The notes beneath the pieces were generated by a model, which saw only the letters and a program-made list of their open reading frames with translations, was not told the origin of the DNA and did not search any database. The translations under genes and the position numbers were made by a program. From a virus, in the IMG/VR virus record IMGVR_UViG_3300029893_000010, positions 1 through 55,960 of that record: a stretch of 55,960 bases of DNA; one strand, written 5' to 3'. Of this stretch, positions 12,918-44,816 are shown piece by piece. Every line of letters starts with the position of its first letter. The stretch's first letter is position 1.

Positions 12918-13074
12918 TGCGGGATTCTTCGCAAAGCGATCCAGGTATTACAGAGATCTGTACTACAAAACCGTTCTCAAGGTTTTGATACGTCTCGTGA
13001 CTCTGGTTCTGTTTTTTGTCGTGTTCTTCGGTTTAGGTGTGATTATTTCGTCACTCCTATTAGGAGTGCTATGA
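12910..13074 (+). CDS. Small membrane protein
   Basis: Fifty-four residues from ATG 12910 with a basic N-terminus and one long hydrophobic segment (VLFFVVFFGLGVIISSLLLG). The stop overlaps the start of cassette gene A1 (ATGA). The bases just before the stop contain the near-palindrome CACTCCTATTAGGAGTG. Function unknown. Confidence 0.45.
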   Translation: MDSAGFFAKRSRYYRDLYYKTVLKVLIRLVTLVLFFVVFFGLGVIISSLLLGVL

Positions 13075-13484
13075 AAGCAAAAAAAGGTAAACACTTCCCG
13101 ATAGTTGGTGGCAATATTGCAGATGAATGTCCTGTTTGCAGTAGCGTCATCGTTGGCATAGGGCACAATCGCGGTATTTGCCCATCATGTGCACGTGAAG
13201 AAATTATTGCATTGCGCAAAGAAGTAGCACGCCTCCATATTGTGGATAAAGAAAAGGTACGAAAAGAATTGCATGAAAAGGTAAATAAGTGGTTCTCGGA
13301 ACAACCGCAACGCCCTATCGCTCAATTCATGCTTGAAACAATGTGGCAATACATTGAATCCGCCCCAAAAAGCGTGCAGGCGGACGAAACTAACTGCACT
13401 TGCAAAGATGGTTACGGTAGTGTTTTAGATGTTGGTAATTGTGGTCGTTGCGGCAAACCGTTTCGCCGTAACGCAAACCGTTAG
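13071..13484 (+). CDS. Cassette-type gene A1: zinc-ribbon protein ending in an attC site
   Basis: The product has 137 residues. It opens with a zinc-finger-like segment (CPVCSSVIVGIGHNRGICPSC), continues with a helical region and ends with a second Cys-rich segment (CTCKDG...CGRCGKPFRR). The last 40 residues are encoded by an attC-like site: the peptide SVQADE comes from the L'' arm and RRNANR from the L' arm. The same SVQADE segment appears in cassette B1. Its own cassette start is not clear, so the left boundary is degenerate. Confidence 0.6.
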   Translation: MKAKKGKHFPIVGGNIADECPVCSSVIVGIGHNRGICPSCAREEIIALRKEVARLHIVDKEKVRKELHEKVNKWFSEQPQRPIAQFMLETMWQYIESAPKSVQADETNCTCKDGYGSVLDVGNCGRCGKPFRRNANR

Positions 13485-13487
13485 GTG
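13361..13487 (+). repeat. attC site A1
   Basis: The left arm CCCCAAAAAGCGTGCAGGCG and the right arm GCCGTAACGCAAACC match the L boxes of the other sites; the R' core GTTAGGT is at 13480-13486 with the predicted exchange point after G13480. The R'' box (CCCCAAA) is degenerate. About 127 bp, within the known attC range. Confidence 0.65.
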
Positions 13488-13492
13488 CTTAT

Positions 13493-13729
13493 ATGCGTAT
13501 TCTTGATCTGTTCGCTGGCAAGGGGTTACAGCGCAAAGATAAAAGCGTTCCGCGTTTGATCGTTGCCCCGCGTGGTCGTCATTCCGCAAAGCCGATTGAA
13601 GCCTATGAAAGAATTGAGAGGCTTTTCGGTAATGTAAGCAGGGTTGAATTATTTGCCCGCAATAATCGTCAAGGCTGGTCAGCGTTTGGTAATCAGGTAG
13701 AAGGTTCTATACACCTTCCAACAAGTTGA
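13493..13729 (+). pseudogene. Cassette A2: remnant of an MT-A70-like adenine methyltransferase
   Basis: Seventy-eight residues. The N-terminus MRILDLFAGKG looks like motif I of a SAM-dependent methyltransferase, but the following segment (APRGRHSAKPIEAYERIERL...ELFARNNRQGWSAFGNQVEG) is the C-terminal end of MT-A70-type adenine methyltransferases. The central catalytic DPPW region is missing, so the gene is probably an internally deleted or fused fragment. It begins 12 bp after the A1 core site, as cassette genes do. A degenerate CACCTTCCAAC at its end may be a decayed R'' box. Confidence 0.5.
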
Positions 13730-14579: not shown

Positions 14580-17396
14580 CTACGCGACTAGCGGTTCTCC
14601 CAAAAATGACGAAACATCATTGCTCTCCCCCACCGCCGCATTGGAGATAACGCGGTAGGTAGGATCGCCATCCGAATTCACAATGCCGAGCAGGTACGCA
14701 GCATCCCCCACAAACACGGTTTTTAGTCTGTGATAATCGTTGTTGGCGAAACGATACGTCACACTCGGGTCCACACGAGACCGTATCGAGAACGGCTCGC
14801 CACGATCTCCGATGTATTCAATAGTCACCATCACGCTCTTGTCGTTGGTTTCAATGGCAGCCTTGAGGCTTTCCATCGTGAAATTCCCAGACGATTTTAG
14901 CAGTGATGCCGGGACGGTGGTCACTGGTGTTTTTGGTTGAGAACATCCACACATGATCTGTTTTTCTCCTCTCCGATATACACTCCACTTTTCGTCAATA
15001 TATCGGACGATCTCATCTATTTTATCATGGTCTTTTTCTCGTTTTGTAGATGTGTTCATTCGATAAACAAAAAGAGGCTCCGGTATCCTATATGCACAAT
15101 ATCCAAGATGGTGCACACCGATCTGGAAATCCCAATCCTCCATTCCAGGAATGCGCTCATCAAAGCCACCCTGCATTTCCATCATCGATTCTACAATGGC
15201 TCTTGGAAAAAGGATGGATGATCCAGGATACTGCATGGTATGGATAACAAGGGTTGAGTCAAATTCATTGTACGAATTTATCCTGGTTCCTTCCAGTGTT
15301 GAAAGTACAATGTCTGAAAAGATCACTCCGTAATTATGTTCCGCAGTGGACACCATTCTCTCAAGGAACCATGGCATCCAATAATCATCGGCGTCCATCC
15401 AGACAATATATCTTCCTCTGGTGTGCTTGAAACCTTCGTTTCTGGCTGCCGAAGCGCCTCGGTTTCCGTCCATGTTTATGACGCGCGCCCACGGTGCGCC
15501 CATGATGTCGTTTTCCCATGCTTCTCCTGTATCGTTCACCACTACAACCTCCCAATCAGGGTAGGTCTGCGCCTGAATGGAGTCCAGCGCATCGATCAGA
15601 TATTTTCTGTGACCTGGTCCGCATGTCACAACGATGGAAACAATCGGGTTGGCGTAGTCGTGGACATACCAAAAACCGAGGTTTCTTGGTGGGTTTCCCT
15701 GCGCGCCAAATGGAACAAGATACGAATTCCTCGGGCTCTCTCCACGCTGACGAAGTACATCCCGCGCCTGATCGAAGTTTGTAGCGCCCATCCGCCAGGG
15801 GAACCAGGCTGTCCAATCCGGTTCGGCGACTTCGTTCTGCCACTCGGTCGCGCCCTTGCTGTCGTGGCGCTCCCGGTGATAATAGGTTACGGCTTCTGTG
15901 AACTTATGTGCCCGAAACCCCAATGAGGTCACGCGGCACCAAAATTCCGCATCTTCATTGCGCTTCATGCGTTCCCGATAGCCGCCAGAGCGTTCGTAGA
16001 CCTCCCGTCGTGCCATCACACAGGATGGAAGTTGGTTGAGGTGCGCCATCTGATGATACCAATTGTATTTTGCTGGAGGCCACCCGCCTCTTACCGGCTC
16101 TCCATGCTCAAGAACTCTGCTTCCATCTGTACGGACGACCTCGAGATGACCATAGACAATATCAACAGAACGGTTGGTGTCCAGTTCATGCGTCTCAAGT
16201 TCAAGAGCGGACGGGGAAAGAAAATCGTCAGCGTCCAGATGTCGAACATACCGTCCGCTTGACAGCGATAGCCCGTAATTCCGAGCACCGGGAAGTCCAA
16301 GATTTTCCGGGGTTGGAGCGTAACGGATACGTTGATCTGTTTTTGCATGGGTTTCCACGATCTTTCTGGTGGACGCAAGGTTGGCGTCATCCACCACGAT
16401 GCACTCAAAATCCCTGAATGTCTGCTCCTGAACACTGTCCAGGCATTGATCGATGTATTCATCCAGTTTGTATGCGGTCACGATCACGGACACCTTCGGC
16501 GCAGGCGTGTTCCATTTCCGATACACATCCATAAAGAGTTCGGCATACTGCTGGATGCGCGGTTCCCAACTCCAGTTTTTTCTGGCATCCTCCACACAAT
16601 TGGCAGATAGTCGGTCACGCTCCGACAGACAGAGTTGTATGCACTCCCTGAGTGCCCTGTAGTCTCCGGGAGGGGCAAGGTATCCGGTTTCGCCCTGTAC
16701 GATGATCTCAGATTGGCCTCCCCAATTCCAGCCAGCCACAGGCACACCGCTTGCCAGCGCCTCGAGCGTTCCAATACCAAATGTTTCCCGTGCAGTGGCA
16801 AGGTACACTCCCGCTCCTGCAACGACAGGTTTCATCTGCTCGTATGGCTTGACACCGATGATCTTCACGTTCGGTGTGTGGGTGTACATTTTGTTTTGTG
16901 AACCAATCGTGGTTCGGAATTCTACGTCCTGTGTCATTTCCGCGATACGGATCATGTCTCCGGGATCAGAAACATAATCGGCGCGAGCCTTGTTCCACAA
17001 GACATAGTTTCCATGATCTTTGGACGGCTTGAACTCATCGGCGTTGACACCGTGATATATGACCTTCGGATACCAAAATCCGCCGCGGCGGATGGCGCGT
17101 GCCACCCATTCGCTCGGAGCGGTATGTGCCGTGGCGGTGTGCATCGCTTCCACGACCTGCCGGTTCACTTCCATGAACCCATCTCCCCACGGCTGCCTGC
17201 TCCACATGAACCCGTGCCCGACATGCACGACAGGAATTCCAGGGAGGTGCTCGTTTGCACTTCCATGGTTGCAGATCACGTCGGCGGATCGAATGTCGTC
17301 CACAACCTCGACTCCGAACGATGGCAGGTAGCGCACCTGCGCATCGATCACGCGCCGGATGCCGTCAATGGCCTTCTTATTGATATAAACTTTCAT
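14580..17396 (-). CDS. Three-domain glycosyltransferase (GT4 + GT2 + GT2)
   Basis: The product has 938 residues from ATG 17396. Residues 1-295 form a GT-B (GT4-like) enzyme with YLATARETFGIGTLEALASG and GWNWGGQSEIIVQGETGYL. Residues about 300-560 are a GT-A/GT2 enzyme (VSVIVTAYKLDEYIDQCLDS, VVDDAN, and the metal-binding DAD at 387-389). Residues about 583-860 are a second GT2 (VSIVVTCGPG, VVVVNDTGEAW, DAD at 667-669). A small beta domain ends the protein. Next to sugar-biosynthesis genes and virion genes, it probably builds an oligosaccharide on the virion or the host surface. Acceptor and sugars cannot be told. Confidence 0.85.
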   Translation of the reverse strand: MKVYINKKAIDGIRRVIDAQVRYLPSFGVEVVDDIRSADVICNHGSANEHLPGIPVVHVGHGFMWSRQPWGDGFMEVNRQVVEAMHTATAHTAPSEWVARAIRRGGFWYPKVIYHGVNADEFKPSKDHGNYVLWNKARADYVSDPGDMIRIAEMTQDVEFRTTIGSQNKMYTHTPNVKIIGVKPYEQMKPVVAGAGVYLATARETFGIGTLEALASGVPVAGWNWGGQSEIIVQGETGYLAPPGDYRALRECIQLCLSERDRLSANCVEDARKNWSWEPRIQQYAELFMDVYRKWNTPAPKVSVIVTAYKLDEYIDQCLDSVQEQTFRDFECIVVDDANLASTRKIVETHAKTDQRIRYAPTPENLGLPGARNYGLSLSSGRYVRHLDADDFLSPSALELETHELDTNRSVDIVYGHLEVVRTDGSRVLEHGEPVRGGWPPAKYNWYHQMAHLNQLPSCVMARREVYERSGGYRERMKRNEDAEFWCRVTSLGFRAHKFTEAVTYYHRERHDSKGATEWQNEVAEPDWTAWFPWRMGATNFDQARDVLRQRGESPRNSYLVPFGAQGNPPRNLGFWYVHDYANPIVSIVVTCGPGHRKYLIDALDSIQAQTYPDWEVVVVNDTGEAWENDIMGAPWARVINMDGNRGASAARNEGFKHTRGRYIVWMDADDYWMPWFLERMVSTAEHNYGVIFSDIVLSTLEGTRINSYNEFDSTLVIHTMQYPGSSILFPRAIVESMMEMQGGFDERIPGMEDWDFQIGVHHLGYCAYRIPEPLFVYRMNTSTKREKDHDKIDEIVRYIDEKWSVYRRGEKQIMCGCSQPKTPVTTVPASLLKSSGNFTMESLKAAIETNDKSVMVTIEYIGDRGEPFSIRSRVDPSVTYRFANNDYHRLKTVFVGDAAYLLGIVNSDGDPTYRVISNAAVGESNDVSSFLGEPLVA

Positions 17397-17413
17397 GCTT
17401 CCTCGTTGATGAT

Positions 17414-18136
17414 CTAATATACAGGATAGGTCTTTGGTGGAACAACATGAGAACGGGTGTGGATGACCCCGTTCAGCCACACATTTCCATCTCCATGGAA
17501 TTCCCAATCCATCTCCCTGCCTCCCTCGAGCGGCACGACCCGGCTCTTTTGTATCCAGAACTCGGAAGGTTCCGGTTCTTCGATGGCGGGTTGAAGGATC
17601 GGGATATACACATCCCATGCCCGACCCGGGTTGATGATCTCGGTTCCGTTCCGAAGAATTGCGACAGCCTTCCAGAAACGATACGGTCGAAAGAACCAAT
17701 TATCGATACGGGGGTCAAGCAAATCCGTGTTCTGCTCGTTCGGGTAGGTGAGAACCTTGTAGTGTGTTGCTGTTTCTCCGGTAATGGCAATGATTCCGCC
17801 TCCACACACAACAGGTTCCGCCCGGCCGGTGGTGTATCTGTCATCGGGACGATACGCCCCATCCCCATCCACATTGATCCACATCAGATCGACACTGCGA
17901 GCATACCGAAATCCATCCTCATTGTTGATCTTCTCGATGTATCTCCACCAGTTCGCCTTTACGGAAAACCGGTCTCCTTTTTGCTCTCCATATCCATAAT
18001 TTTGCATACGGATGACATCCGGGAAATATGTGAGTTGAGGAAAACCCGTGCGGTTCGGGTCGTGCTTGACAAGCGCAAGACGAAGGCGTTCACGAACGAT
18101 CCTTTTTCTGGTGTAACGCACCTGGATGGTCTGCAT
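17414..18136 (-). CDS. Hypothetical, possibly virion-associated protein
   Basis: Two hundred and forty residues, rich in aromatic and beta-strand patterns (MQNYGYGEQKGDRFSVKANW, YIPILQPAIEEPEPSEFWIQ). Starts after a GGAG 8 bp upstream, 3 bp from the end of the next gene upstream and 17 bp before the glycosyltransferase. No family recognised. A structural protein or a glycosylation target is possible. Confidence 0.5.
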   Translation of the reverse strand: MQTIQVRYTRKRIVRERLRLALVKHDPNRTGFPQLTYFPDVIRMQNYGYGEQKGDRFSVKANWWRYIEKINNEDGFRYARSVDLMWINVDGDGAYRPDDRYTTGRAEPVVCGGGIIAITGETATHYKVLTYPNEQNTDLLDPRIDNWFFRPYRFWKAVAILRNGTEIINPGRAWDVYIPILQPAIEEPEPSEFWIQKSRVVPLEGGREMDWEFHGDGNVWLNGVIHTRSHVVPPKTYPVY

Positions 18137-21078: not shown

Positions 21079-21767
21079 TGCCAACTCTTTTCTGTGCCAA
21101 TGTGCTTCCAGGCGCCCCACACAGAAATTCCAGCCGGTCTCCATATCCACGGACCCGTATTCAGGCGGTACTGGTCATCCATGTGCAGTTCGATATTCCC
21201 TGGATTCCTGTCCTCCGCAAACCATCCGTATGCTTTTGTAAATCTTGCATGACGGATATAGGGATTGCCAGAGTAGGCATATTGGGTACTTTCCATGTAT
21301 TGCAGGAACATTTCGCCGTTACAGCCTACGGTGTGGACATCGGCTCCAGACGAAAGGATGCGATAGGTGATCGCTCCAACATCCTCCCGATCCGAAAGGA
21401 TGCGCATGTGCCGGGTGATGTCAAGAGTCTCGTCAAGGTTCCAGTCGTCCTCCAGCCAAAGTACATAATCGCTGAATTGATGGCAGATACCGAGCCCTTT
21501 GTTCCAGCCAATCCCGGCGTTGTGAGTATCCTCTTCGCCTTCATTGCGTATCCTGGCACTATGGAATCCGATGATGCGTTCGTTATTCTTCTCTAGCAGT
21601 TCCATGATTGACGCCATGTGATCCTGCGGGGATCCATCGTCCGCAATGTACCATCCGCGATTTTCCTTTGGATAACAAAGGTTTTCGCATGTCGATTTTA
21701 TTGTTTTCAGCGCCACTTCGGTGCGCTTGTATGTTGCAATGCAGATCGCAAGGTTAGGCGATGTCAT
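21075..21767 (-). CDS. Family 2-like glycosyltransferase
   Basis: The product has 230 residues, a single GT-A domain: LAICIATYKRTEVALKTIKS, WYIADDGSPQ, NKGLGICHQF, and the metal-binding acidic motif WLEDDW. Overlaps the kinase gene by 4 bp and the PseB-like gene by 14 bp. It would transfer a sugar from one of the nucleotide sugars made by the neighbouring enzymes; acceptor unknown. Confidence 0.75.
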   Translation of the reverse strand: MTSPNLAICIATYKRTEVALKTIKSTCENLCYPKENRGWYIADDGSPQDHMASIMELLEKNNERIIGFHSARIRNEGEEDTHNAGIGWNKGLGICHQFSDYVLWLEDDWNLDETLDITRHMRILSDREDVGAITYRILSSGADVHTVGCNGEMFLQYMESTQYAYSGNPYIRHARFTKAYGWFAEDRNPGNIELHMDDQYRLNTGPWIWRPAGISVWGAWKHIGTEKSWQ

Positions 21768-22701
21768 TCTTCAACAACTCCGCAAGTTCTTCCCTGGTAA
21801 GCCGCTCTGCGTTCTCGCTCGTGAACGGGATTCCCAATTCTGTTACGACCCTCTGTGTCGTTGTCGGTCGGACGACAAAGAAATCGTCGTGACTGCGAAC
21901 GAACTCAGCCTCCTCGAGAGACACAAGCGTTTCGTGTTTCTTCTCTCCGGGACGCATCGGAACCTGCCGATTGCCATGTTCTCCAATGGTGTAATCGAAT
22001 AACTGCTGGATGGACAATGACTTGAGTTTCGGAACGTAGATCTCACCGCTCTCCAATTCCAAACAATCCTCCACGATCTTTGCGGCGTGTGCAGGGGAAA
22101 GCCAGAAGCGGGTCATCTCCGGGTCTGTGATGGTCGGGGTTTCACCGCGCTCGATCTGCGCCTTCCACACCTCAATGACAGAGGCGGTGGACTCCAGTAC
22201 ATTCCCATACCGGACAAGGTGAAACTTTGTGTGAACAGGCAGGCGCGAGTATTCCTGAAAGATCTTCTCCATCAGATACTTTGTGGCGCCGTAGGCATTG
22301 GCTGGATGACAGGCTTTGTCGGTCGAGATGCCGATCACGCGATCAATTCCATGCTGGATGGCTGCGTTGGCAACATTGATTGACCCTTCTACATTGATAT
22401 GGTATGTGTCAATTGAGTTGTATTCACTTGTTGGGATCTCTTTCACTGCCGCAGCGTGAATAACGATGTCGTGTCCCGCCATTGCGTTATAAAGCGTGGT
22501 GTAGTCCCTTACATCACCAACAACTGTATGTATAAATGGAAAAAACCTTTTTATCCGAGCGTGCTTTGTTGGATCTGTTGAGAAAATGGTTATGTGATTC
22601 CCGTAATCCCTCTCTATACACCTTCTTATTATTTCCGTTCCAAGGGTGCCACACCCTCCAGTCACGAAAAGTCTTGCGTTATTGAAAGCATTTTTACTCA
22701 T
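21754..22701 (-). CDS. Nucleotide-sugar 4,6-dehydratase, PseB/CapD-like
   Basis: The product has 315 residues. FVTGGCGTLGTEIIRRC is the Rossmann motif, HAAAVKEIPTSEYN is the segment typical of UDP-GlcNAc 4,6-dehydratases (PseB, FlaA1, CapD), then ISTDKA, and YGATKYLMEK holds the catalytic YxxxK. The family makes keto-deoxy-hexosamine precursors for pseudaminic or bacillosamine-type sugars. Starts after AAAGAAAGGATAATGT. Confidence 0.8.
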   Translation of the reverse strand: MSKNAFNNARLFVTGGCGTLGTEIIRRCIERDYGNHITIFSTDPTKHARIKRFFPFIHTVVGDVRDYTTLYNAMAGHDIVIHAAAVKEIPTSEYNSIDTYHINVEGSINVANAAIQHGIDRVIGISTDKACHPANAYGATKYLMEKIFQEYSRLPVHTKFHLVRYGNVLESTASVIEVWKAQIERGETPTITDPEMTRFWLSPAHAAKIVEDCLELESGEIYVPKLKSLSIQQLFDYTIGEHGNRQVPMRPGEKKHETLVSLEEAEFVRSHDDFFVVRPTTTQRVVTELGIPFTSENAERLTREELAELLKNDIA

Positions 22702-27342: not shown

Positions 27343-27454
27343 CTGGCTACGGGCTTGCGCTACCTGCCGTATTTTGTGGATTTGCGCTGGGTAGTGGATG
27401 ACGACTTTTGAACCGTAGACTTGGCGATGTCAGGTGGACGCTTTGTTTGGCGGC
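27343..27454 (-). repeat. attC site B7
   Basis: L'' AAAGCGTCCACCTGAC and L' GCAGGTAGCGCAAGCC are conserved. R'' GCCGCCAAAC matches the start of its own cassette (GTTGGCGGC) with one inserted base. The R' core reads GTAGCCA, imperfect, consistent with the array end. Confidence 0.65.
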
Positions 27455-27560
27455 GCTCTGGAATAAAAGATACCACCAAAAACAACAAGACTGAAACACA
27501 AAGACCAATTGCCGACTCAATAATTTTTACTTGTCTGTAATTCTCAAGGAACCAATCCAT
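27360..27560 (-). CDS. Cassette gene B7: small membrane protein
   Basis: Sixty-six residues with one transmembrane helix (IGLCVSVLLFLVVSFI) and a basic Ser/Thr/Lys tail. The tail from RRQTKRPPD onward is encoded by the attC site. ATG lies 38 bp inside the cassette after GAGAAAGGTAAAACG. Function unknown. Confidence 0.55.
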   Translation of the reverse strand: MDWFLENYRQVKIIESAIGLCVSVLLFLVVSFIPERRQTKRPPDIAKSTVQKSSSTTQRKSTKYGR

Positions 27561-27592
27561 CGTTTTACCTTTCTCTCGGATGGCAAGGAAGC

Positions 27593-27730
27593 CGCCAACG
27601 GTTATGCTTTACCTGCGAATGCCGCAGTTTTCGCATTCCAACATTTCTGGCGTATCCAACGTACCATCCCATTTGAAAACATGAGGAAGCCCAGTGCGGC
27701 ATTTGTCAGGTGCAAGCGGTGTTAGAAGGC
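27593..27730 (-). repeat. attC site B6
   Basis: R'' GCCTTCTAAC is the exact complement of the cassette start GTTAGAAGGC; L'' ACCGCTTGCACCTGAC, L' GCAGGTAAAGCATAACC, R' GTTGGCG with exchange after 27599. About 138 bp. Confidence 0.75.
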
Positions 27731-27866
27731 GTTCTTGCTGGCAAGTTTTACACTGGCAATCTCTACCATGTAGGTGATTCGGATGCGTGAAGTATTCGCC
27801 ACATTTAGCGCAAAACCTGTTTTCAGGAAAGACAACATCAGGCAAGGTCATAAAATAATGTTTCAT
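27609..27866 (-). CDS. Cassette gene B6b: zinc-ribbon protein
   Basis: Eighty-five residues from ATG 27866, which overlaps the stop of B6a (ATGA). Three Cys pairs: CAKCGEYF, CQCKTC and, inside the attC-coded tail, CENCGIRR. The junction peptide LLTPLAPDKC corresponds to the R''/L'' arm. Function unknown, likely zinc-binding. Confidence 0.6.
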   Translation of the reverse strand: MKHYFMTLPDVVFPENRFCAKCGEYFTHPNHLHGRDCQCKTCQQERLLTPLAPDKCRTGLPHVFKWDGTLDTPEMLECENCGIRR

Positions 27867-28066
27867 TTTTTTACCTCGTATTCGTAACAATCTTGGCATA
27901 CACCCTTTTTATACACAACACCTTCACCGCAAACAGAGCAAATAGCAGATTTCTTACAATTTTCACACTTATACACGCGCAAAACTACATTGCTATCAAT
28001 TACCTTCATGTAGAAATTTAGTTTTTCGTGGCAAGACGAGCATGTTAGTATTATTGACGTTTGCAT
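27863..28066 (-). CDS. Cassette gene B6a: zinc-ribbon protein
   Basis: Sixty-seven residues with three Cys pairs (CSSCHEK, CENCKKSAICSVC, CQDCYEYE), a multi-zinc-ribbon fold. Begins 13 bp inside the cassette (TTAGAAGGCTATCATG), the same 5' leader as cassette B5. One of two genes in a single cassette, coupled by an ATGA overlap to B6b. Confidence 0.6.
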   Translation of the reverse strand: MQTSIILTCSSCHEKLNFYMKVIDSNVVLRVYKCENCKKSAICSVCGEGVVYKKGVCQDCYEYEVKK

Positions 28067-28073
28067 GATAGCC

Positions 28074-28193
28074 TTCTAACGGTTTGCGTTACCTGCGCTC
28101 ATTCTTCGCCCGAACACTCATGGCAAAGAGGGATAATTTCATCGCCACAACCTGTGCAGTAAATAGCGTCAGGTACACGCTTTGTTAGAAGGC
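28074..28193 (-). repeat. attC site B5
   Basis: R'' GCCTTCTAAC is the exact complement of its cassette start GTTAGAAGGC; L'' AAAGCGTGTACCTGAC, L' GCAGGTAACGCAAACC, R' GTTAGAA with exchange after 28080. About 120 bp. Confidence 0.8.
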
Positions 28194-28395
28194 TTATTTC
28201 ACCTTCTGATACTACGCGAGTAAGACCATAACTAGGCTGATCCCATCTGAAGTGAATGCGAGTATGCCAGTTAGTGAGATTGCCAGCCGCATCCCAAGTT
28301 GCGTCAATATAATTTTCAAGGACATAACCTACTTCGGCGTTATCGTCTATGACTTCATCGCCGCGATTGAATGGGGGAAGTTGTTTATTTTGCAT
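28099..28395 (-). CDS. Cassette gene B5: small protein with C-terminal zinc knuckle
   Basis: Ninety-eight residues. The N-terminal part (FNRGDEVIDDNAEVGYVLEN, HFRWDQPSYG) looks like a small beta barrel. The tail LLTKRVPDAIYCTGCGDEII...CHECSGEE is attC-encoded and carries the two Cys pairs. ATG lies 13 bp from the cassette start. Function unknown. Confidence 0.6.
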   Translation of the reverse strand: MQNKQLPPFNRGDEVIDDNAEVGYVLENYIDATWDAAGNLTNWHTRIHFRWDQPSYGLTRVVSEGEISLLTKRVPDAIYCTGCGDEIIPLCHECSGEE

Positions 28396-28402
28396 GATAG
28401 CC

Positions 28403-28508
28403 TTCTAACGTACTTGCGTTACTGGTTTGCGGGTTGCGCCACGAGTGCCGAATTTGCGGACGAGTCTAGCAAATCCAGTGCACGCGTAGTTGTGCCGCGC
28501 GTTTGTTG
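28403..28508 (-). repeat. attC site B4
   Basis: R'' GCGGCACAAC complements the cassette start GTTGTACCGC at 9 of 10 positions; L'' TACGCGTGCACTGGAT, L' CCAGTAACGCAAGTAC, R' GTTAGAA with exchange after 28409. About 106 bp. Confidence 0.75.
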
Positions 28509-28711
28509 GCAAGTTCAACAGCCGCGCCATCGTGCGGGGCTGTAATCACAAACGATTTTCCTTGCGCCATGTGGACGGTATATTTTGAGTTACGCCCGAC
28601 GCGGCGTCGCCCAAATGAACGCCTGATATAAGACCCATCGGCAGCGGTGCAAACACGTTGCGCCAATGCCTGCTCAATTCGCTGACCTGTTTCTGTTGGC
28701 AAAGTAAACAT
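28466..28711 (-). CDS. Cassette gene B4: small basic protein
   Basis: Eighty-one residues from ATG 28711 (GGAG 5 bp upstream): MFTLPTETGQRIEQALAQRV, then a basic stretch RRSFGRRRVGRNS and a beta/helix end (SFVITAPHDGAAVELANKRA). The last residues LRVHWIC are attC-encoded. An in-frame TTG at the exact cassette junction (28732) is less likely as a start. Function unknown. Confidence 0.5.
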   Translation of the reverse strand: MFTLPTETGQRIEQALAQRVCTAADGSYIRRSFGRRRVGRNSKYTVHMAQGKSFVITAPHDGAAVELANKRAAQLRVHWIC

Positions 28712-28726
28712 ATTTCTCCAAGAGCG

Positions 28727-28858
28727 GTACAACGGCTTACATTACCCGCTTATGGGCGGGACGAGACGAACTACGGGAGGAGTAAAATCTTCGGGCGTAG
28801 TCCACTGCATGGGAGCCGCAGACTCCCCATAAGTCGGGTGCATGTTTTGTTGGGCGGC
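28727..28858 (-). repeat. attC site B3
   Basis: R'' GCCGCCCAAC complements its cassette start GTTGGGCGGC exactly; L'' AAAACATGCACCCGAC, L' GCGGGTAATGTAAGCC, R' GTTGTAC with exchange after 28733. About 132 bp. Confidence 0.8.
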
Positions 28859-28969
28859 TTGCCTGCCTGCCAGATACGCTGCGTGCGCGATTTCACGCAA
28901 ACCGACATCAACATTTTCCATCAGGCGAAATTTATTGATAGTCCACCATGTTTCAAATTCTTTATCCAT
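28742..28969 (-). CDS. Cassette gene B3: small protein
   Basis: Seventy-five residues from ATG 28969 behind AAGGAGTCTT. The N-terminus MDKEFETWWTINKFRLMENV and AAYLAGRQAAQQ resemble short phage proteins that begin with an E-W-W pattern and an alanine-rich helix. The C-terminal half from QNMHPTYG is attC-encoded and proline-rich. Function unknown. Confidence 0.55.
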   Translation of the reverse strand: MDKEFETWWTINKFRLMENVDVGLREIAHAAYLAGRQAAQQNMHPTYGESAAPMQWTTPEDFTPPVVRLVPPISG

Positions 28970-28994
28970 AAGACTCCTTCGTTGAGCGAGAGCC

Positions 28995-29111
28995 GCCCAA
29001 CGGTTTGCGTTACCCGCTTTCGGCAGGCAAGGCATTTTCAACTTTCACGAATTCGGGCAGGCTCAAAACGCCAGCCTTCAAAGAGTCGGGTACACGCGGT
29101 GTTAGGCAACC
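28995..29111 (-). repeat. attC site B2
   Basis: R'' GGTTGCCTAAC is the exact 11-base complement of its own cassette start GTTAGGCAACC; L'' ACCGCGTGTACCCGAC, L' GCGGGTAACGCAAACC, R' GTTGGGC with exchange after 29001. About 117 bp. The clearest site of the set. Confidence 0.85.
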
Positions 29112-29669
29112 TGCCCATTGCGCCGCAAATGCGTTTGCGATACCCTGATACGTGCGTGACCGCTCATGTGAACGGTTTTTACCAGGTGACATTTTATGTA
29201 TTCTTTGCTCTCTACCTTCCACGATATTTGTACTCTCCAAAAATGGCAAACCTTTTAGCCAAAGGCATGTAGCTTTTGTTTCACCATGCCCGAACTGATA
29301 CGGTTGTATTACTTGATCGTATTTTCTTCCAATGATTTCAACCGCGTATTTATGGGGTATAGGGTTTTCAACTGCAATCTTTGTGATAGGTGCGTTCAGA
29401 ATGAGTTTGAAAAACTCGGCTGCTTCCCGCATTTCCCGCCAAAGGTTTCTTTCTGCGAGCCAACGAACGCCCGAATTACATAACCTTGTGCAGGGAGGAT
29501 GTGCAACCATCAAATCCCACCCGCTGTATAGAATATCTCGGATGTCACCCTGATAGTGATTGCCTGGTATTTCCGTAGGCAATAAATCACACGACCAGGA
29601 TTCATGACCGAGCGCGGAGAACGCTTCACGAACCACACCACTGAACTCACAAGCTACAAGGATACGCAT
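29010..29669 (-). CDS. Cassette gene B2: C5-cytosine DNA methyltransferase-like protein
   Basis: The product has 219 residues. MRILVACEFSGVVREAFSAL is a SAM-binding start, HPPC at 57-60 is the motif IV Pro-Cys with the likely nucleophile Cys60, and ENPIPHKY at 101 stands for motif VI (ENV). It is shorter than full C5 enzymes and lacks a clear target-recognition domain, as in a widespread phage group. ATG is 13 bp inside the cassette with no good ribosome site. The tail LTPRVPDS onward is attC-encoded. A role in protecting phage DNA from host restriction is plausible. Confidence 0.65.
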   Translation of the reverse strand: MRILVACEFSGVVREAFSALGHESWSCDLLPTEIPGNHYQGDIRDILYSGWDLMVAHPPCTRLCNSGVRWLAERNLWREMREAAEFFKLILNAPITKIAVENPIPHKYAVEIIGRKYDQVIQPYQFGHGETKATCLWLKGLPFLESTNIVEGREQRIHKMSPGKNRSHERSRTYQGIANAFAAQWAGCLTPRVPDSLKAGVLSLPEFVKVENALPAESG

Positions 29670-29675
29670 AGGGTT

Positions 29676-29802
29676 GCCTAACGGTTTGCGTTAGCGGCGA
29701 GTGCCGCACTCTGAACAAATATCGGGATACGTTTGCTGGTCGGTGTACGCTGGCTTGGCGTGACAATGTGGGCACTCGTCCGCCTGCACGCTTTGTTCTA
29801 CC
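29676..29802 (-). repeat. attC site B1
   Basis: R'' AGGCGGTAGAAC is the exact 12-base complement of its cassette start GTTCTACCGCCT; L'' AAAGCGTGCAGGCGGAC, L' GCCGCTAACGCAAACC, R' GTTAGGC with exchange after 29682. About 127 bp. Confidence 0.85.
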
Positions 29803-29996
29803 GCCTTCCTGCTATTGCGCATTACAACACGAGCGGCAAGGCGACCGATTGCAAGCAACTTCTGACGCTCAACCTTATCAGCCAGCGTAGATAATTCATT
29901 TGCCAATTTGCTGTTTTCGTAGCCATCATTCGCGCGGATGAAAAAAGCCGCTTTGCGTGCTGCTTCAATCAATTGATTTAATTCTTCGTTTGCCAT
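29691..29996 (-). CDS. Cassette gene B1: helical protein with attC-encoded zinc ribbon
   Basis: The product has 101 residues: a helical N-terminal part (LNQLIEAARKAAFFIRANDG) and a C-terminal zinc ribbon CPHCHAKP...CSECGTRR. The ribbon with the preceding SVQADE is encoded by the attC site, closely resembling the end of A1. It is the first cassette after the attI-like element and has an AAAGGAGTGAT ribosome site. Function unknown. Confidence 0.6.
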   Translation of the reverse strand: MANEELNQLIEAARKAAFFIRANDGYENSKLANELSTLADKVERQKLLAIGRLAARVVMRNSRKAVEQSVQADECPHCHAKPAYTDQQTYPDICSECGTRR

Positions 29997-30025
29997 ATCA
30001 CTCCTTTTGCCAAGAGGCGGTAGAA

Positions 30026-30048
30026 CTAGTGTTTAACCAGAATGTACA
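30026..30048 (-). other. attI-like element at the head of array B
   Basis: Minus strand, between the stop of the 77-residue gene and the first cassette: TGTACATTCTG, two bases, TTAAAC, A, CTAG, then the cassette TTC. It shares 20 of 23 positions with the element in front of array C (43620-43642). The last base is the G of the predicted G|TT exchange. Confidence 0.55.
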
Positions 30049-30289: not shown

Positions 30290-30318
30290 AGTGTATCGCA
30301 TAATGTACATTATGTCAA
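30290..30318 (-). promoter_or_regulatory. Sigma70-type promoter with palindromic operator, leaderless
   Basis: Minus strand: TTGACA (30318-30313), 17-bp spacer, TACACT (30295-30290). The spacer and the last base of the -35 are covered by the 14-bp perfect palindrome ATAATGTACATTAT (30300-30313). The ATG at 30282 begins 7 bp after the -10 box, so the transcript has little or no leader. Confidence 0.65.
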
Positions 30319-30321
30319 CAC

Positions 30322-30822
30322 TTACATCTTCCTTCTGGCAACTTCCGTAACAGCCTCCTGCATATCCATGGCAAATTCACTGGCGTATGTCTGAGCGATC
30401 TGTTCTGTGAAATTCCTTGCTTCAAACCCTGGATGATTTATCGAATACGCCACACGCGGTCGTCCAGATCGATACTTTCTGCTGGATTGCAACGATCCCG
30501 GTCGTGTGGCTGCTTTATACCCTGGTCTATACACCATTCTTGTGAACCCTGTTTTTGGAATGCGGTGCGGAGGAGAGCCAGCGTTTACCAAGTTCCATAT
30601 ATCTGCGCCCTCTCCACGTGGATATACGTTGATGGTGATCTCATCACTTCGGACGGTTTGTGCCCATCCGAAGTCGGGCTTCTTGCTCCATCCAAACACC
30701 GTCTTTTTAAATAACTCCCGAAGTTTCGGAAGAGACTTGGCGCGTTGTTTTGACGCAATGGCATTGAGCCATCCGCGTTTCGCAAATTCAACCTTTGGAA
30801 GTGAGACCTTGACGCTAATCAT
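30322..30822 (-). CDS. HK97 gp10-like head-tail protein
   Basis: The product has 166 residues. It follows the portal gene with an 8-bp overlap. Features such as the internal VNAGSPPHRIPKTGF (the family's N-x-GT-xxxxxP segment), RPGYKAATRPGS and the helical end FTEQIAQTYASEFAMDMQEA fit gp10-like head-tail joining or minor capsid proteins. Moderate certainty. Confidence 0.6.
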   Translation of the reverse strand: MISVKVSLPKVEFAKRGWLNAIASKQRAKSLPKLRELFKKTVFGWSKKPDFGWAQTVRSDEITINVYPRGEGADIWNLVNAGSPPHRIPKTGFTRMVYRPGYKAATRPGSLQSSRKYRSGRPRVAYSINHPGFEARNFTEQIAQTYASEFAMDMQEAVTEVARRKM

Positions 30823-32766: not shown

Positions 32767-35292
32767 TCACAAGTTCAATCTCATAACCATGTAACTTCCC
32801 ATGCTCGCCGTGACCGCAAGGTCAACCTTTAGGTTTTCGGCGCGCTTGACGATCCTTATGCGTGTGCTTTCCGTGTCGATCTTGGCGTCCGCGTTCTGAA
32901 AGTGTTCGCGGTCGAACGGTTCGCCGCGATGCCAGTATCTACGGTCACGGATCAAGTCCTTCATCTGGCTGTCCGCAAGGAGACGTAGAGACACCTGGTT
33001 GAACGAGAAGAACCATGCGAGACCTTCCTTCCGCAACCGTCCTGCCATATCATGTAACTGGAATGGATCGTACGCCACGCAGATGACATTATAATCTTTT
33101 ATCCACCTGCGTAACATCAATTCGGGTCCAGGGTTTTCCTCTGTTCCCTGGTAGTCGATCTTATTCCCTTTTGGGACCCACAACATCGACTGCAATTTAA
33201 CAACGTGTTCCGGTTCCTTTGGATGACGACATCCCATCCACATGCCGAACGAGTCGCCTGAGACAGAGGCGTCCATGGCGATCACAACGGGATGATCCTT
33301 TGGTATTTCAGGATACTCGCTTCTCTTGCAGGCGTCATACCACTCCATCGGCAAAAATGTCTCTGTGCTTGTCACCCACTGATTGCGGTGCATTCGCTGG
33401 AATTGATTGTCCTCAAGAATTGATGCCTCGGATTGATAGTATTCCTTTGTCTGCCAAGGGCAGCGTGGTTTCGTGTTCCATAAACAGATCATGCCTGCCT
33501 TTTTATTGACGTACACCTCCAGCGGGGCAGGTTCTCCATCGGTCACAGGGTACAACCGGTCAGGCCATAACATCTCACCTTGTTTGACGCCGAGGTCGTA
33601 CAGCGAATATAGCAGGTTACTCTCACCGGCGAAGCCTGCGTAACTTTCAACCCAGCGGAATGCTTTTCCGTATTTCGTTGGGGGTATGGTCATCTCCGAA
33701 TTTCCTGTCACAAACGGTCTACCTTCCCGTCGAGCGACGAATAATCCGCTTGAAACAGTTGGACACCATACTTTTCCCTTGTATTTTTTCAACTTCCAAT
33801 TGCTCTTATGTATTGATACCTGAACATTTCCAGTTGTGAGATTTACCCTCCACCATTTTTGATGAGGACGCACCGACGACCTGATCCCTCTCCGAAATGC
33901 AATTTCCTGCAAGTCATCAGCCATTCCCTTGGATGCACACGTTATCTGGAATGACCCGTCTTTTTTGATGTGCCCATCTCCAAGAATATACGAGTGAAGA
34001 AATATATCCAGTATCTCGCGGTCGGCATGAATTATTTCACGCGGGACACGTTTCTCGAAAGTCTTTCCAAACTTCTTCGTTATCGCCGCCAATTCCGTGC
34101 TGCTTATCTTGAATCCATCGCGTTTTGAAACCTTCACCCAATCCCCGAAAATATCCACCAAGATTGAGTGTATCTCGTCGTACTTCTCAGGATGTGGTTC
34201 CCGCAATTGAGATATTTTTACATGGCATGGTTTTCCTCTATAATCCGATGTGCTCCCTTCTGTCAGATACAGACCCAGAAACGCAGCCCACTTCTTGAAA
34301 GGAATATAGAGCGGTTCGTGGAATTTTGTTCGTTTGAGCCACACGCCCGGAGGATTTTCGGGAGAATGCGATACATAAAGCGGAGTTGTTACCGGGTGGT
34401 AATAACTGTATTTTGAATTTCTCAACTCCTCTGATGTCATCACAAAATTTTTCCCTTTTTCGTCATTCGCGCCAGAGAATGTGTAACCTCCATACAGACG
34501 GTGCTTGCTTGTACATGCAATTGAAAAAATCCTGTGCTCATACAGGTGAAGTTCCCCATCAAAATCAGACTTGAAGATGTTTTCCGGTTTCTCCCATTCT
34601 ACATATCCATTCCGATACGCGGCGATGTAATCATCATGCGTCAGGTCGATTCCTTTTTTCCATCCGTCGAACGTCAAAACGTCAGTTTCCTCATCAAGAC
34701 ACCACATATTTTGCTTCGCGGTTTCGTTCGCGCCCCACAACTCCGAGAAGGTAATCATGTCAGCATTCGAGCCAGCCTCGCCGCTCGGGTCAATAGGGAT
34801 GGCTTCAATGTACGATCCACTCGGGACGACGATCTTGTACCCGGTCATCTTGCACGACTTCTTGTGTTTATCGTTCAACTGGATGTTACGGCGGAGATAA
34901 TGCGCGACGCGGCTGTCCGCCTGCTTGAGATCGTTAGCGATCACATACAGCTCGCCAAATTCTGAGTGCGTGGCTATCGCAAAGTTGACCGCCGCGGCAA
35001 TCGTTGATTTTCCAGATTTCTTGATGTCAGACCACACCACGATGGAATATTTATAATTTCCGTTCTCGTCGGTCGTCAGGATCTCCCGCAGGACATCCTC
35101 CTGATATTTCTGGAGTCCGATCCTGCCTTTCAGCACCGGGTCATGTTTCGTCTCGGGGATGTAGAAGTTCCGTTTGATCCAGTCAACCAGATCCTTCCTC
35201 CCCTCGCTCCTCTTCGTCTGTTCCCCAATCATCTCCGCGATCTTCTTCTCCAGCAAGGTCGCTGCGGTCTCCGATGATCCTTGAGTATTCAT
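32767..35292 (-). CDS. terL: Terminase large subunit, interrupted by an intein
   Basis: The precursor has 841 residues, extein about 507 after splicing. ATPase: Walker A KKSGKST at 91-97; Walker B region ADMITFSELWGA at 177-188, with Ser where an Asp is usual before the Glu. Nuclease: VIAMDASVSGDSFGMWMG, VAYDPFQLHDM and a late DLAVTASMG give the acidic RNase H-like residues. The intein (residues 198-531) sits just after Walker B and must be removed for function. It packages DNA into proheads. The first 110 bp overlap the upstream gene; GAGG lies 8 bp before the ATG. Confidence 0.9.
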   Translation of the reverse strand: MNTQGSSETAATLLEKKIAEMIGEQTKRSEGRKDLVDWIKRNFYIPETKHDPVLKGRIGLQKYQEDVLREILTTDENGNYKYSIVVWSDIKKSGKSTIAAAVNFAIATHSEFGELYVIANDLKQADSRVAHYLRRNIQLNDKHKKSCKMTGYKIVVPSGSYIEAIPIDPSGEAGSNADMITFSELWGANETAKQNMWCLDEETDVLTFDGWKKGIDLTHDDYIAAYRNGYVEWEKPENIFKSDFDGELHLYEHRIFSIACTSKHRLYGGYTFSGANDEKGKNFVMTSEELRNSKYSYYHPVTTPLYVSHSPENPPGVWLKRTKFHEPLYIPFKKWAAFLGLYLTEGSTSDYRGKPCHVKISQLREPHPEKYDEIHSILVDIFGDWVKVSKRDGFKISSTELAAITKKFGKTFEKRVPREIIHADREILDIFLHSYILGDGHIKKDGSFQITCASKGMADDLQEIAFRRGIRSSVRPHQKWWRVNLTTGNVQVSIHKSNWKLKKYKGKVWCPTVSSGLFVARREGRPFVTGNSEMTIPPTKYGKAFRWVESYAGFAGESNLLYSLYDLGVKQGEMLWPDRLYPVTDGEPAPLEVYVNKKAGMICLWNTKPRCPWQTKEYYQSEASILEDNQFQRMHRNQWVTSTETFLPMEWYDACKRSEYPEIPKDHPVVIAMDASVSGDSFGMWMGCRHPKEPEHVVKLQSMLWVPKGNKIDYQGTEENPGPELMLRRWIKDYNVICVAYDPFQLHDMAGRLRKEGLAWFFSFNQVSLRLLADSQMKDLIRDRRYWHRGEPFDREHFQNADAKIDTESTRIRIVKRAENLKVDLAVTASMGSYMVMRLNL
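33700..34701 (-). mobile_element. Intein with LAGLIDADG homing endonuclease in terL
   Basis: Residues 198-531 of the terminase precursor, 334 residues. Block A starts at Cys198 (CLDEETDVLTFDGW), block B contains TSKH (261-264), the DOD endonuclease repeats are FLGLYLTEGS (338-347) and FLHSYILGDG (431-440), and block F/G reads VWCPTVSSGLFVARREGRPF followed by VTGN with Ser532 as the +1 residue. The penultimate residue is Gly530 instead of the usual His, a known but less common variant. It lies between Walker B and the coupling region of the ATPase. Confidence 0.9.
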
Positions 35293-40020: not shown

Positions 40021-40550
40021 CCGCCATCGTCCAGGACATCCCGTTTGCCATTGTCCTCGACACCGACCATTCCTTCACGCCCGCCGAAGTGCAGCCCGTG
40101 ATCGACGGCTACGTCTGCGCGATCTGCCACGCCGAACTCGTTGAGGTGCAGGTGCCGAACGAACAGCGCCGTCTCATCGTCTGTCCCGAACACGGCAACG
40201 TCTGCGACTGCGGACGCGTCACCCGCGCCACGGTTTCCATCGAATACGAACGCGCGTACAGGTCCTACCATGAGGTCATCCGAAACCTCTCCGATCTGTG
40301 GGGTCATCTCGCAGATCAGGGCTTCGACCGCAACAAGGCGTCCATCATCACCAAAAATTACGTCTGCGCCGTCTGCGGAGGAACCCTGTATATGTTCATC
40401 CGCTCCGATGATCGCTTCGGCGACATCATCGACATCAAGTGCTCGTCTCACGGCAATATCAACCTTTGCGGGCACACCAAGAAATCCGAATTCGTCTATG
40501 ACTTCCAGCGCATCCGCGCATGGGAGCGAGAAAACAGAAAAAGGAGATAA
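40017..40550 (+). CDS. Protein with duplicated zinc-binding module
   Basis: The product has 177 residues, made of two related halves: YVCAICHAELVEVQ...CPEHGNVCDCG and YVCAVCGGTLYMF...CSSHGNINLCG, each followed by a basic helix (IEYERAYRSYHEVIRN; DFQRIRAWERENRKRR). The CxxC/C-x2-HGN/CG pattern suggests one zinc per half. Function unknown. Confidence 0.6.
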   Translation: MTAIVQDIPFAIVLDTDHSFTPAEVQPVIDGYVCAICHAELVEVQVPNEQRRLIVCPEHGNVCDCGRVTRATVSIEYERAYRSYHEVIRNLSDLWGHLADQGFDRNKASIITKNYVCAVCGGTLYMFIRSDDRFGDIIDIKCSSHGNINLCGHTKKSEFVYDFQRIRAWERENRKRR

Positions 40551-40552
40551 TC

Positions 40553-41608
40553 ATGCCTATCGCAAACCTCACCACCGGAACCAATCAGACCTTTATGAAA
40601 CTCGGAAAGATCCGCAAAGGCGACCGCGGCGGAAAGAACGGCGCTCCGCGCGACCTCGACCACTTCCGCGTCACCTTCATGGACGGCGCCAAGGCGAAGG
40701 AACTGGAGGATGCCTTCCGCTCCATCTACGGACCGGAACCCACCGAGATCAACGTGCGTGTCCCGTACAACGACATTCCCCGCTTCTGGGACGCCAATTA
40801 CGAATGCTACAAGCAGGGCGGACTCGTGGCGCAGGCTGGATCGACCGCGGATGGGGATTACTGGATCTTCTACCGAGACCCCGAATCCTCCGAGGTGCTC
40901 GTGCGCAACGGTCAGTCGGTTGGAGAGGCGGGACGCATGTTCCTTGCCAACAACCCATGCGACGTGACCAAGCCGATCTACTACAACGCCGCCAACGAAC
41001 CCGTCATGATGAAACCTGCCGGACGCCTGCAAGTCGTGATCCCCGAACTGGCGGGAATCGAGGTCGGGTACTTCGAGTTCACTCCCACCTCCCCACGCGA
41101 CATCCGTACCCTCTCCGCCGAACTGGCAGCCTTTGACGCCATCGCCAAGTCGTTCGGCAAGGGCTTGGCGGGTGTGCCGTTCAAACTCATCCGTCGCAGG
41201 GAGACCGTCACCAAGAAGATCAAGGATAAACTCACACAGGGCGAATCATGGGTCGTGCATATCACGACCGGCGGAGATTGGGGCACAAAAGCCCTGGAAG
41301 CCGTGGAACGCATGGCGCTCCCGGACGTGGTGGACGTGGAGCCGGAGGACATCACCGACTACGAAACGACCGACATCATTGACATCACTCCCCCGCAGAT
41401 CCCTCCCACGGTCGGCGCACTCACTCCCATGCCGTACGAACAGGCAGTGAAGGTCACGATCCAAGGCAGGGATAAGACCGTCAAGCGCATCGCGGACCTG
41501 GACCGCACCAAGATGGAGTGGATCGTCCGCAACCCGGACAAAACCTCAAAGGAACAGCAGGACGCCGCCCGCACCATCTTGATCGTCGATCATGGAGTGC
41601 AACTCTAA
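40553..41608 (+). CDS. Gp3-like (recombination directionality factor-like) protein
   Basis: The product has 351 residues from ATG 40553 (AAGGAGATAATC). LGKIRKGDRGGKNGAPRDLD HFRVT, then YGPEPTEINVRVPYNDIPRF with YECYKQGGLV and GYFEFTPTSPRDIRTL follow the pattern of the phage Gp3-like family, one member of which (mycobacteriophage L5) is a recombination directionality factor. The C-terminus has VTIQGRDKTVKRI and a helix. A role in excision by the tyrosine recombinase or in replication is possible. Confidence 0.5.
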   Translation: MPIANLTTGTNQTFMKLGKIRKGDRGGKNGAPRDLDHFRVTFMDGAKAKELEDAFRSIYGPEPTEINVRVPYNDIPRFWDANYECYKQGGLVAQAGSTADGDYWIFYRDPESSEVLVRNGQSVGEAGRMFLANNPCDVTKPIYYNAANEPVMMKPAGRLQVVIPELAGIEVGYFEFTPTSPRDIRTLSAELAAFDAIAKSFGKGLAGVPFKLIRRRETVTKKIKDKLTQGESWVVHITTGGDWGTKALEAVERMALPDVVDVEPEDITDYETTDIIDITPPQIPPTVGALTPMPYEQAVKVTIQGRDKTVKRIADLDRTKMEWIVRNPDKTSKEQQDAARTILIVDHGVQL

Positions 41609-43619: not shown

Positions 43620-43642
43620 TGTACATTCTGTATAAACCCTAG
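43620..43642 (+). other. attI-like element at the head of array C
   Basis: TGTACATTCTG, two bases, TAAAC, one base, CTAG, followed by the cassette bases TTCGGC. Same as 30026-30048 on the other strand at 20 of 23 positions. Exchange point predicted after G43642. Confidence 0.55.
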
Positions 43643-43674
43643 TTCGGCGCTTACTTGCAAAAGGAGATAAAAAC

Positions 43675-44199
43675 ATGCCCGACACAATCGAAGATATTGA
43701 AGCCGATATTATGTGGCTTGAAGAAGCAATCGGCGAAAATGAAGAAAGGCTTGAAGAACTTACCAGCGAAAATTACAAGCCAGAAGAAAATGCGGATGAT
43801 GAATACCGTGAAAAAGACATCGAAGAACTCACCGAAGGTATTGCGGAATACCGCCGTGAGATTGCAAAGTGTCAAAGAAAAATCGAAAGGCTGAAACGCG
43901 CCGAGCGTGAACGCCAAAATAAAAAGTGGGGTGAGCAAAACCACGATGATTATCGTTGGCTTGCTATCCTCACAGAAGAAGTAGGTGAATTGGCACAGGC
44001 TATTTTGCATGATGAGTTTGGCGGTTCGCACGCTGGCACTGCTAAAACTGAACTCGTTCACGTCGCCGCTGTTGCGGTTCAATGGTTGGAGTGCATGGAA
44101 AGGCGGCAACTAACACAGCGTGCACCGGACGCTACGCCACAGCCGCCATTGCGTGGCGAGGTATGGCGTAGCGATGAAGAATTGCCAACAGGCGTCTAG
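43675..44199 (+). CDS. Cassette gene C1: MazG-like nucleotide pyrophosphohydrolase
   Basis: The product has 174 residues. An N-terminal acidic coiled coil (residues 1-80) precedes an all-alpha NTP-PPase segment: WLAILTEEVGELAQAILHDE, then ELVHVAAVAVQWLECMER, with the EExxE metal ligands. It lacks the second Asp-rich helix pattern of full MazG (His replaces Asp in ELVDVAA). The tail QLTQRAPDAT onward is attC-encoded. MazG-type enzymes degrade ppGpp or modified nucleotides in several phages. Confidence 0.65.
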   Translation: MPDTIEDIEADIMWLEEAIGENEERLEELTSENYKPEENADDEYREKDIEELTEGIAEYRREIAKCQRKIERLKRAERERQNKKWGEQNHDDYRWLAILTEEVGELAQAILHDEFGGSHAGTAKTELVHVAAVAVQWLECMERRQLTQRAPDATPQPPLRGEVWRSDEELPTGV

Positions 44200-44226
44200 T
44201 CGCGCCAGTAACGCAAACCGTTAGCC
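44107..44226 (+). repeat. attC site C1
   Basis: R''-like CAACTAAC, L'' ACAGCGTGCACCGGAC, L' GCCAGTAACGCAAACC, R' GTTAGCC with exchange after 44220. R'' does not complement the start of this cassette (GTTCGGCGC) well, so the site may have recombined. About 120 bp, with an internal stem around GGCGTAGC/GCTACGCC. Confidence 0.7.
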
Positions 44227-44252
44227 TGCTCCGCGCTTTTGAAAGGTGTCTT

Positions 44253-44771: not shown

Positions 44772-44787
44772 CGCAATCCGTTCGGCG
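44658..44787 (+). repeat. attC site C2
   Basis: R'' GCGGGCTAAC complements the cassette start GTTAGCCTGC at 9 of 10 positions; L'' AAAGCGTGCACTGGAC, L' GCCAGTAACGCAATCC, R' GTTCGGC with exchange after 44780. About 130 bp. Confidence 0.8.
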
Positions 44788-44816
44788 GACTGCTCAACAG
44801 CATAAAGGAGATTTCA

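Follow-up and report, generated by a model that had tools for sequence, protein, structure and literature searches.

Integron gene cassette arrays headed by attI-like sites in a probable temperate phage of Anaerolineae

The viral record IMGVR_UViG_3300029893_000010 of the IMG/VR database (positions 1 to 55,960, the whole stretch of 55,960 nucleotides being designated here as the window) carries an array of seven integron gene cassettes inside the head region of a phage. This array (array 1) occupies positions 27351-30026 of the minus strand between a gp10-like gene and a DUF6582 gene, both encoded on the same strand, and each of its units, 249 to 681 bp in length, is terminated by an attC site. 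The cassettes begin with the G of a G|TT junction at positions 30026, 29682, 29001, 28733, 28409, 28080, and 27599 (C1 to C7, respectively), and the right end of the array is at 27350. The attC sites listed below were scored with a covariance model (R1), for which 44 attC sites from other viral records, and no window sequence, were used.

29683-30026, minus strand: cassette C1, 101-amino-acid (aa) CxxC zinc-ribbon-like protein (29691-29996); attC 29674-29804; R1 57.1 bits, E 1e-13
29002-29682, minus strand: cassette C2, 219-aa DNA methyltransferase (phrog_757, E 1e-59); attC 28993-29110; R1 E 1e-14
28734-29001, minus strand: cassette C3, 75-aa protein with no function assigned; attC 28725-28858; R1 E 2e-13
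28410-28733, minus strand: cassette C4, 81-aa protein; attC 28401-28498; R1 E 3e-9
28081-28409, minus strand: cassette C5, 98-aa protein with CxxC pairs; attC 28072-28193; R1 E 7e-15
27600-28080, minus strand: cassette C6, two CxxC proteins of 67 and 85 aa; attC 27591-27730; R1 E 3e-11
27351-27599, minus strand: cassette C7, 66-aa protein with one hydrophobic segment; attC 27343-27454, R' degenerate (GTAGCCA); R1 E 1e-7

An earlier examination of the letters of this DNA (the sequence-only reading) had described here seven minus-strand G|TT units with attC-like sites, in which the R'' box complements the start of its own cassette and the L boxes are constant. All seven units are present and were detected by R1 (E 7e-15 to 1e-7), and the L boxes match that description. 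Over ten bases the R'' box agrees with the start of its own cassette at every position in C1, C2, C3, C5, and C6 and at nine positions in C4, and the R'' box of C7 carries a one-base insertion (8/10 when compared ungapped). When the starts of array 1 were permuted against the R'' boxes an equal fit was obtained in 2 of 5,040 permutations, a tie that arises because C5 and C6 have the same start. In addition, the bottom strands of C1-C7 in their circular form, whose folding had been proposed as a check, all form long hairpins in which extrahelical bases lie on the L'' side (7/7).

The covariance search proposed together with it, performed here with R1 as an ad hoc model, resulted in exactly ten attC sites in the window, far above background (E 7e-17 to 1e-7), with no further match up to E = 10. 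The coordinates given for array 1 by the sequence-only reading were thus correct within a few bases, while the cassettes extend beyond its range, since three of the ten sites are located at 44105-44228, 44656-44788, and 13359-13488 of the plus strand. Being built from the sites of other phages, R1 tests the membership of the window sites in this attC family; it also detects the attC sites of Anaerolineales chromosomes and, weakly, the class 1 integron attC sites of aadA1 (E 2e-4) and aadA2 (E 1e-3), which ties the family to textbook attC. Class 1 integron attC yielded too few, closely similar sites for a model, and this reverse test with R1 on class 1 sites was made instead. In the R1 alignment, from which the structure itself was derived, both partners vary in 14 of the 17 stem pairs, and paired cells amount to 93.6%; covariation scored 0.47, versus 0.08-0.12 with the partner slid. 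A weight matrix of 70 Anaerolineales chromosomal attC sites gave scores of 38-62 at most window sites (38-60 in four of the seven in array 1) versus 16 or less in 20 shuffled windows; it missed C4, C6, and C7 because their boxes deviate, while the covariance model found all three. An Rfam scan of the window gave no match. The window sites are integron gene cassettes with attC, and the window, with seven plus two clustered attC sites and no integron integrase (IntI), holds clusters of attC sites lacking integron integrases (CALINs).

The second array is located on the plus strand from 43642 to about 45090 and includes two of the sites detected by R1, and a third cassette zone is represented by a lone attC near 13.4 kb.

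43642-44219, plus strand: cassette D1, 174-aa protein, possibly MazG-like by eye; attC 44105-44228; R1 E 1e-13
44220-44779, plus strand: cassette D2, 172-aa protein; attC 44656-44788; R'' 9/10; R1 E 7e-17
44780-45089, plus strand: D3, the final unit, 89-aa CxxC protein; decayed attC (GCCGCCCAGCGAAACACGCACCCTGA at 44919); best R'' match 7/10
13359-13488, plus strand: lone attC of the third zone, near the phage integrase; R1 42.3 bits, E 1e-9; weight matrix 39.7
13480-13729, plus strand: E2, 78-aa remnant with the C-terminus of an MT-A70 methyltransferase (PF05063, E 2e-8), directly 3' of this attC

The R'' box of D1 agrees with the start of array 2 at 6/10 bases, which is no self-match, and D1 may therefore be a fused cassette. 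Partial relatives of D2 are found in the arrays of three other viral loci (L006, L033, and L046), and the attC of D3 was not detected by R1. In the 13.4 kb zone, where no attI was seen, the L'' box (AAAGCGTGCAGGCGGACG) is identical to that of C1, the R'' box is decayed and does not match the cassette start, and an open reading frame (ORF; E1, 13071-13484, plus strand) extends into the attC.

Arrays 1 and 2 share a start motif of 23 bases, TGTACATTCTGNNTAAACNCTA|GTT (TACATTCTGNNTAAACNCTA|GTT), which was found by pattern search with 0 mismatches at both starts (0.01 expected).

30024-30046, minus strand: attI-like site 1, TACATTCTGGTTAAACACTA|GTT, directly after the stop codon of a 77-aa gene; rank 12 of 22,315 GTT sites
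43622-43644, plus strand: attI-like site 2, TACATTCTGTATAAACCCTA|GTT; rank 3 of 22,315 GTT sites

These ranks were obtained with a 16-base attI matrix, which was made from ten IntI-adjacent host sites and applied to every GTT site in 66 viral loci; adjacent to intI, the Anaerolineales chromosomes read approximately TTATACAGCGYGCTGTATAAANCATA|GTTRGGC. Viral array starts fell within the top 0.1% of the ranked sites in 12 of 31 cases, compared with 0.03 expected. Of these starts 30 were defined by R'' self-match alone and the window site 43642 was added for its motif; manual curation removed starts that lay at a contig end or immediately behind an attC-like L' box. By their relation to the intI-adjacent attI and their position at the array start, both window sites can be classified as putative attI. 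Two attI-like sites with attC downstream are also present in each of the records of L061 and L005. A chromosomal attI pattern (CTGTATAAANNNTAGTT) was too unspecific for viral contigs and was not used.

Some further observations concern attI. At seven chromosomal loci (L070, L075, L134, L140, L163, L172, and L185) palindrome-bearing attI-like sites head arrays with no IntI in the examined locus, and Anaerolineales chromosomes may hold several attI sites too. The 77-aa gene of the window has a promoter-like site (30290-30318, minus strand; TTGACA-17-TACACT), which spans the palindrome AATGTACATT; the same palindrome constitutes half of the phage attI sites, and the two may share a regulator, or attI may have arisen from a promoter. 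In the record behind L005 and G018 (L335:19-4012) the second attI-like site is immediately followed by the type IV CRISPR effector genes Csf2, Csf1, and Csf3, identified by PADLOC, with a probable radical-SAM gene between the Csf genes; attC cassettes then follow.

The sequence-only reading had regarded cassette arrays in phages as very rare, which does not hold for viral records with this attC type. The attC half-site GTAACGCAAACCGTTRG was found at 65 IMG/VR loci and at least 120 genome loci, the latter mostly of Anaerolineales or Chloroflexi, and detectable attC sites are present in 58 of the 65 IMG/VR records; these 58 come from many samples, and many of them have attI-like starts. No attC was found by the weight matrix at the other seven loci, some of which may be chance matches and others contig ends. 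From the attC and attI types the host of the virus is probably an Anaerolineae bacterium. A capsid-region gene gave 5 matches in 396 genomes of the class to which an Anaerolineales genome belongs and no match in 48 attC-bearing genomes.

The head-region gene order is common to the window and four relatives: L001, which was found through the DUF6582 gene, G022 and G045, which were found through attC loci, and L357, a contig of a metagenome-assembled genome (MAG) in the class of an Anaerolineales genome. Portal-gene patterns matched no relative in IMG/VR. Array 1 has phage genes on both sides, and its flanks are collinear in all four relatives.

30322-30822, minus strand: gp10-like gene (named by position), a conserved head-region gene upstream of array 1, collinear in L001, G022, G045, and L357
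25290-27089, minus strand: DUF6582 gene (PF20223; earlier called the protease gene, by position), downstream of array 1, directly following the gp10-like gene in L357

Among the head-region genes only TerL (phrog_9) and the DUF6582 gene are supported by hidden Markov models, and gp10, protease, portal, and capsid are names given by position and synteny. In L357 only 9 bp separate the end of the gp10-like match (7061) from the start of the DUF6582 match (7070); this contig contains no attC, and attC sites are present on other contigs of the MAG. The site of array 1 is a gap of about 80 bp in G022 and of about 310 bp in G045, and in L001 different genes occupy it, one of them an HNH endonuclease by eye, in all three cases with no attC. 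In two relatives the arrays are located elsewhere and run counter to their neighbours: G022 has its array at 49.8-52.0 kb amid tail-side genes, and that of G045 follows an attI-like start between TerL and the gene next to it. Thus related phages have gained or lost arrays at different places, and the same gene order in all relatives, which would have spoken against cassettes, was not found.

Taken together, the window is regarded here, with a probability of about 0.78, as a temperate Anaerolineae phage with integrase-less, attI-bearing integrons, which are most likely loaded in trans by IntI of the host or of a co-infecting phage. According to this model the phage would keep two attI-type docking sites, each with a co-directional cassette array, plus a third remnant zone, and IntI supplied by the host, or by a co-infecting phage that carries it, would act in trans and recombine the folded bottom strand of the attC of a free cassette into the phage attI or a resident attC. 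In this way the phage could gather small genes, notably DNA methyltransferases, which may protect phage DNA from restriction. The chances are about even that integron capture is a part of the life cycle of Anaerolineae phages, comprising dedicated attI, an integrase acting in trans, a phage-specific pool of compact, methyltransferase-rich read-through cassettes, and the site-specific acquisition of counter-defence genes.

Several facts weigh against the loading of phage attI in trans. Recombination was not observed, and the data include neither a circular cassette nor a filled and empty pair of the same phage. The junction at the right border of the seven-cassette array is G|TA instead of G|TT, several viral array starts score poorly with the host attI matrix, and the host palindrome ACAGCGNGCTGT is missing from the phage attI sites. 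The host assignment is based on the attC/attI type plus one MAG contig, and no relative of the tested capsid-region protein was found in 50,697 phage records. Expression by operon read-through is not general, since the arrays of G022 and G045 oppose the neighbouring structural genes; array 1 may be co-transcribed with the head region, because attI-like site 1 lies just after a phage gene.

An unlikely alternative is that a phage-encoded recombinase is responsible, either IntI of a co-infecting phage or the XerA-like integrase of the window. When 50 viral records with this attC were searched for IntI, 4 were above the cut-off and two more near it, and in L034 and L044 the array starts are close to their own IntI. 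The remaining 44 records have no evident IntI, which is suggestive only, many of them being fragments. The recombinase of the window is also a poor candidate:

11912-12790, plus strand: the only tyrosine recombinase of the window, XerA/phage-integrase type, the only PF00589 match in the window; TIGR02249 52.7 bits versus a cut-off of 265

This score is far below the integron integrase cut-off, so the window contains no IntI and no complete integron, and the G022 match to this enzyme is only 22% identical. Among 16 attC-bearing genomes IntI above the cut-off is encoded in 9, with attI and arrays adjoining it. The proposal of integron-type cassettes without an adjacent IntI is supported by the attC covariance model, covariation, the R'' self-match, and a related chromosomal system with true IntI. 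As separate observations, L034 and L044 are viral records with TerL and full IntI near the arrays and represent phage-borne complete integrons; a Gp3-like recombination directionality factor (PF18897) is encoded in the window at 40520-41608 of the plus strand and, together with the integrase, suggests a temperate phage.

It is quite improbable that the arrays represent host integron fragments, attI together with cassettes, which entered passively by homologous or illegitimate recombination, with no capture on the phage. Such routes were proposed for phage CALINs by Qi et al. (PMC9892861), and the decayed units C7, D3, and the 13.4 kb zone are consistent with them; however, the TGTACATTC form of attI occurs in viral loci only, among the loci compared, and the window cassettes are related to viral arrays, while their proteins gave no match in any of 124 host chromosomal loci searched. 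Cassette C2 is 95% identical to DNA of another phage, L003, over exactly 681 bp, with 43% and 32% identity in the 60-base flanks, and is the sole DNA common to the window and the compared 20 kb of the L003 record. Other relatives were found for C2 in L029 (86% identity over 598 bp) and for C4 in the array of L043 (77% over about 250 bp). Judging by the identity of C2, which ends at its borders in L003, the cassettes appear to move as units bounded by G|TT.

The phage cassettes also differ from chromosomal ones in length, ORF layout, and cargo, which likewise argues against passive fragments. The median length is 374 bp in viral and 801 bp in chromosomal cassettes, and the longest ORF stops inside attC in 137/187 viral versus 12/201 chromosomal cassettes and in the L' box (GTAACGC) in 83/187 versus 2/201, respectively. 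For ORFs of at least 200 aa the read-through was found in 26/31 viral versus 1/103 chromosomal cases, while there was no difference in cassettes of 600 bp or less (106/138 viral and 8/12 chromosomal, the latter group comprising only 12 cassettes). The suggestion that phage attC is unusually stop-free was rejected, as an open frame is present in 96% of host and 93% of phage attC sites; since attC is equally open in both groups, the read-through is a feature of gene layout and not of a special attC. The set of 111 viral cassette ORFs, including a few from irregular window units, contains nine C5- and eight N6/N4-DNA methyltransferases and three MT-A70 proteins, in agreement with PHROGs, and 109 chromosomal cassette ORFs showed diverse cargo with at most one member in each methyltransferase family.

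An assembly artefact or host contamination, with chromosomal integron DNA misjoined to phage contigs, is very improbable: nearly all viral records are metagenome assemblies, but phage genes flank the arrays on both sides, at differing positions, in the window and in G022 and G045, and the arrays recur in 58 records from many samples with cassettes unlike the chromosomal ones. Chance similarity of repeated terminators, hairpins, or ordinary small phage genes to integron cassettes can practically be dismissed, for although the window attC stretches are largely protein-coding, this view is contradicted by the ten covariance-model matches, the strong covariation, the self-matching starts, and the same sites in chromosomal arrays adjoining IntI.

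Integrons have been studied as bacterial gene-capture devices, and phage-borne cassettes have been reported so far as scattered cases. In the study of Qi et al. 2023 on CALINs and integrons in cultured phages, screening of 10,705 genomes revealed 21 phages; the phage CALINs, defined as two or more attC cassettes without intI, carried DNA methyltransferase cargo, their attC sites were shown to be recombined by IntI1, and an attI was described at the head of a CALIN in a cryptic Shewanella prophage that also has an intact IntI (PMC9892861). Phage CALINs with working attC are thus already known, and the arrays described here resemble them in having attC cassettes without intI and DNA methyltransferase cargo. 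In contrast, they belong to Anaerolineae-type phages with own attI-like sites (two in some genomes), occur in tens of records, and include ten attC sites in one genome and genes running through attC.

With the sedentary chromosomal integrons of Anaerolineales the phage arrays share the R and L boxes of attC, a related attI core (TATAAANCATA|GTT), and G|TT junctions, whereas the chromosome has intI, longer cassettes, attC sites mostly of about 126 nucleotides, long genes that stop before attC, and diverse cargo with few DNA methyltransferases. Like phage morons, the arrays place accessory genes between conserved genes of the head or tail, in some cases in the opposite orientation; unlike in morons, what is inserted is a cassette that carries attC and lies behind an attI-like site, with a defined site-specific mechanism. 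A literature search, with subscription journals and preprints mostly outside its coverage, found no paper on Anaerolineales integrons or their phages. What is new here is that arrays lacking an integrase carry attI-like sites of their own and are frequent in this group of phages, together with the layout of genes reading through attC and a cassette pool rich in methyltransferases. Judged by its sequence, this is a class of cassettes in which the recombination hairpin would double as the coding sequence for the gene end. If phages keep attI sites filled by host IntI, integrons would serve phages too, phages would be a recurrent vehicle of cassettes, and a site-specific route for the acquisition of anti-restriction genes by phages would exist.

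Several other genes of the window were also characterized. Besides cassette C2, a C5-methyltransferase gene (PF00145) is located at 50547-51692 of the plus strand, with no attC detected nearby. A multi-domain glycosyltransferase-like protein of 1,039 aa (14580-17699, minus strand) and a polysaccharide-type epimerase (21754-22701, minus strand) are both conserved in the relatives. The TerL gene (32767-35292, minus strand) encodes 841 aa with a LAGLIDADG stretch, and since TerL of G045 aligns contiguously with residues 8-197 and 532-841, residues from about 198 to 531 look like an intein.

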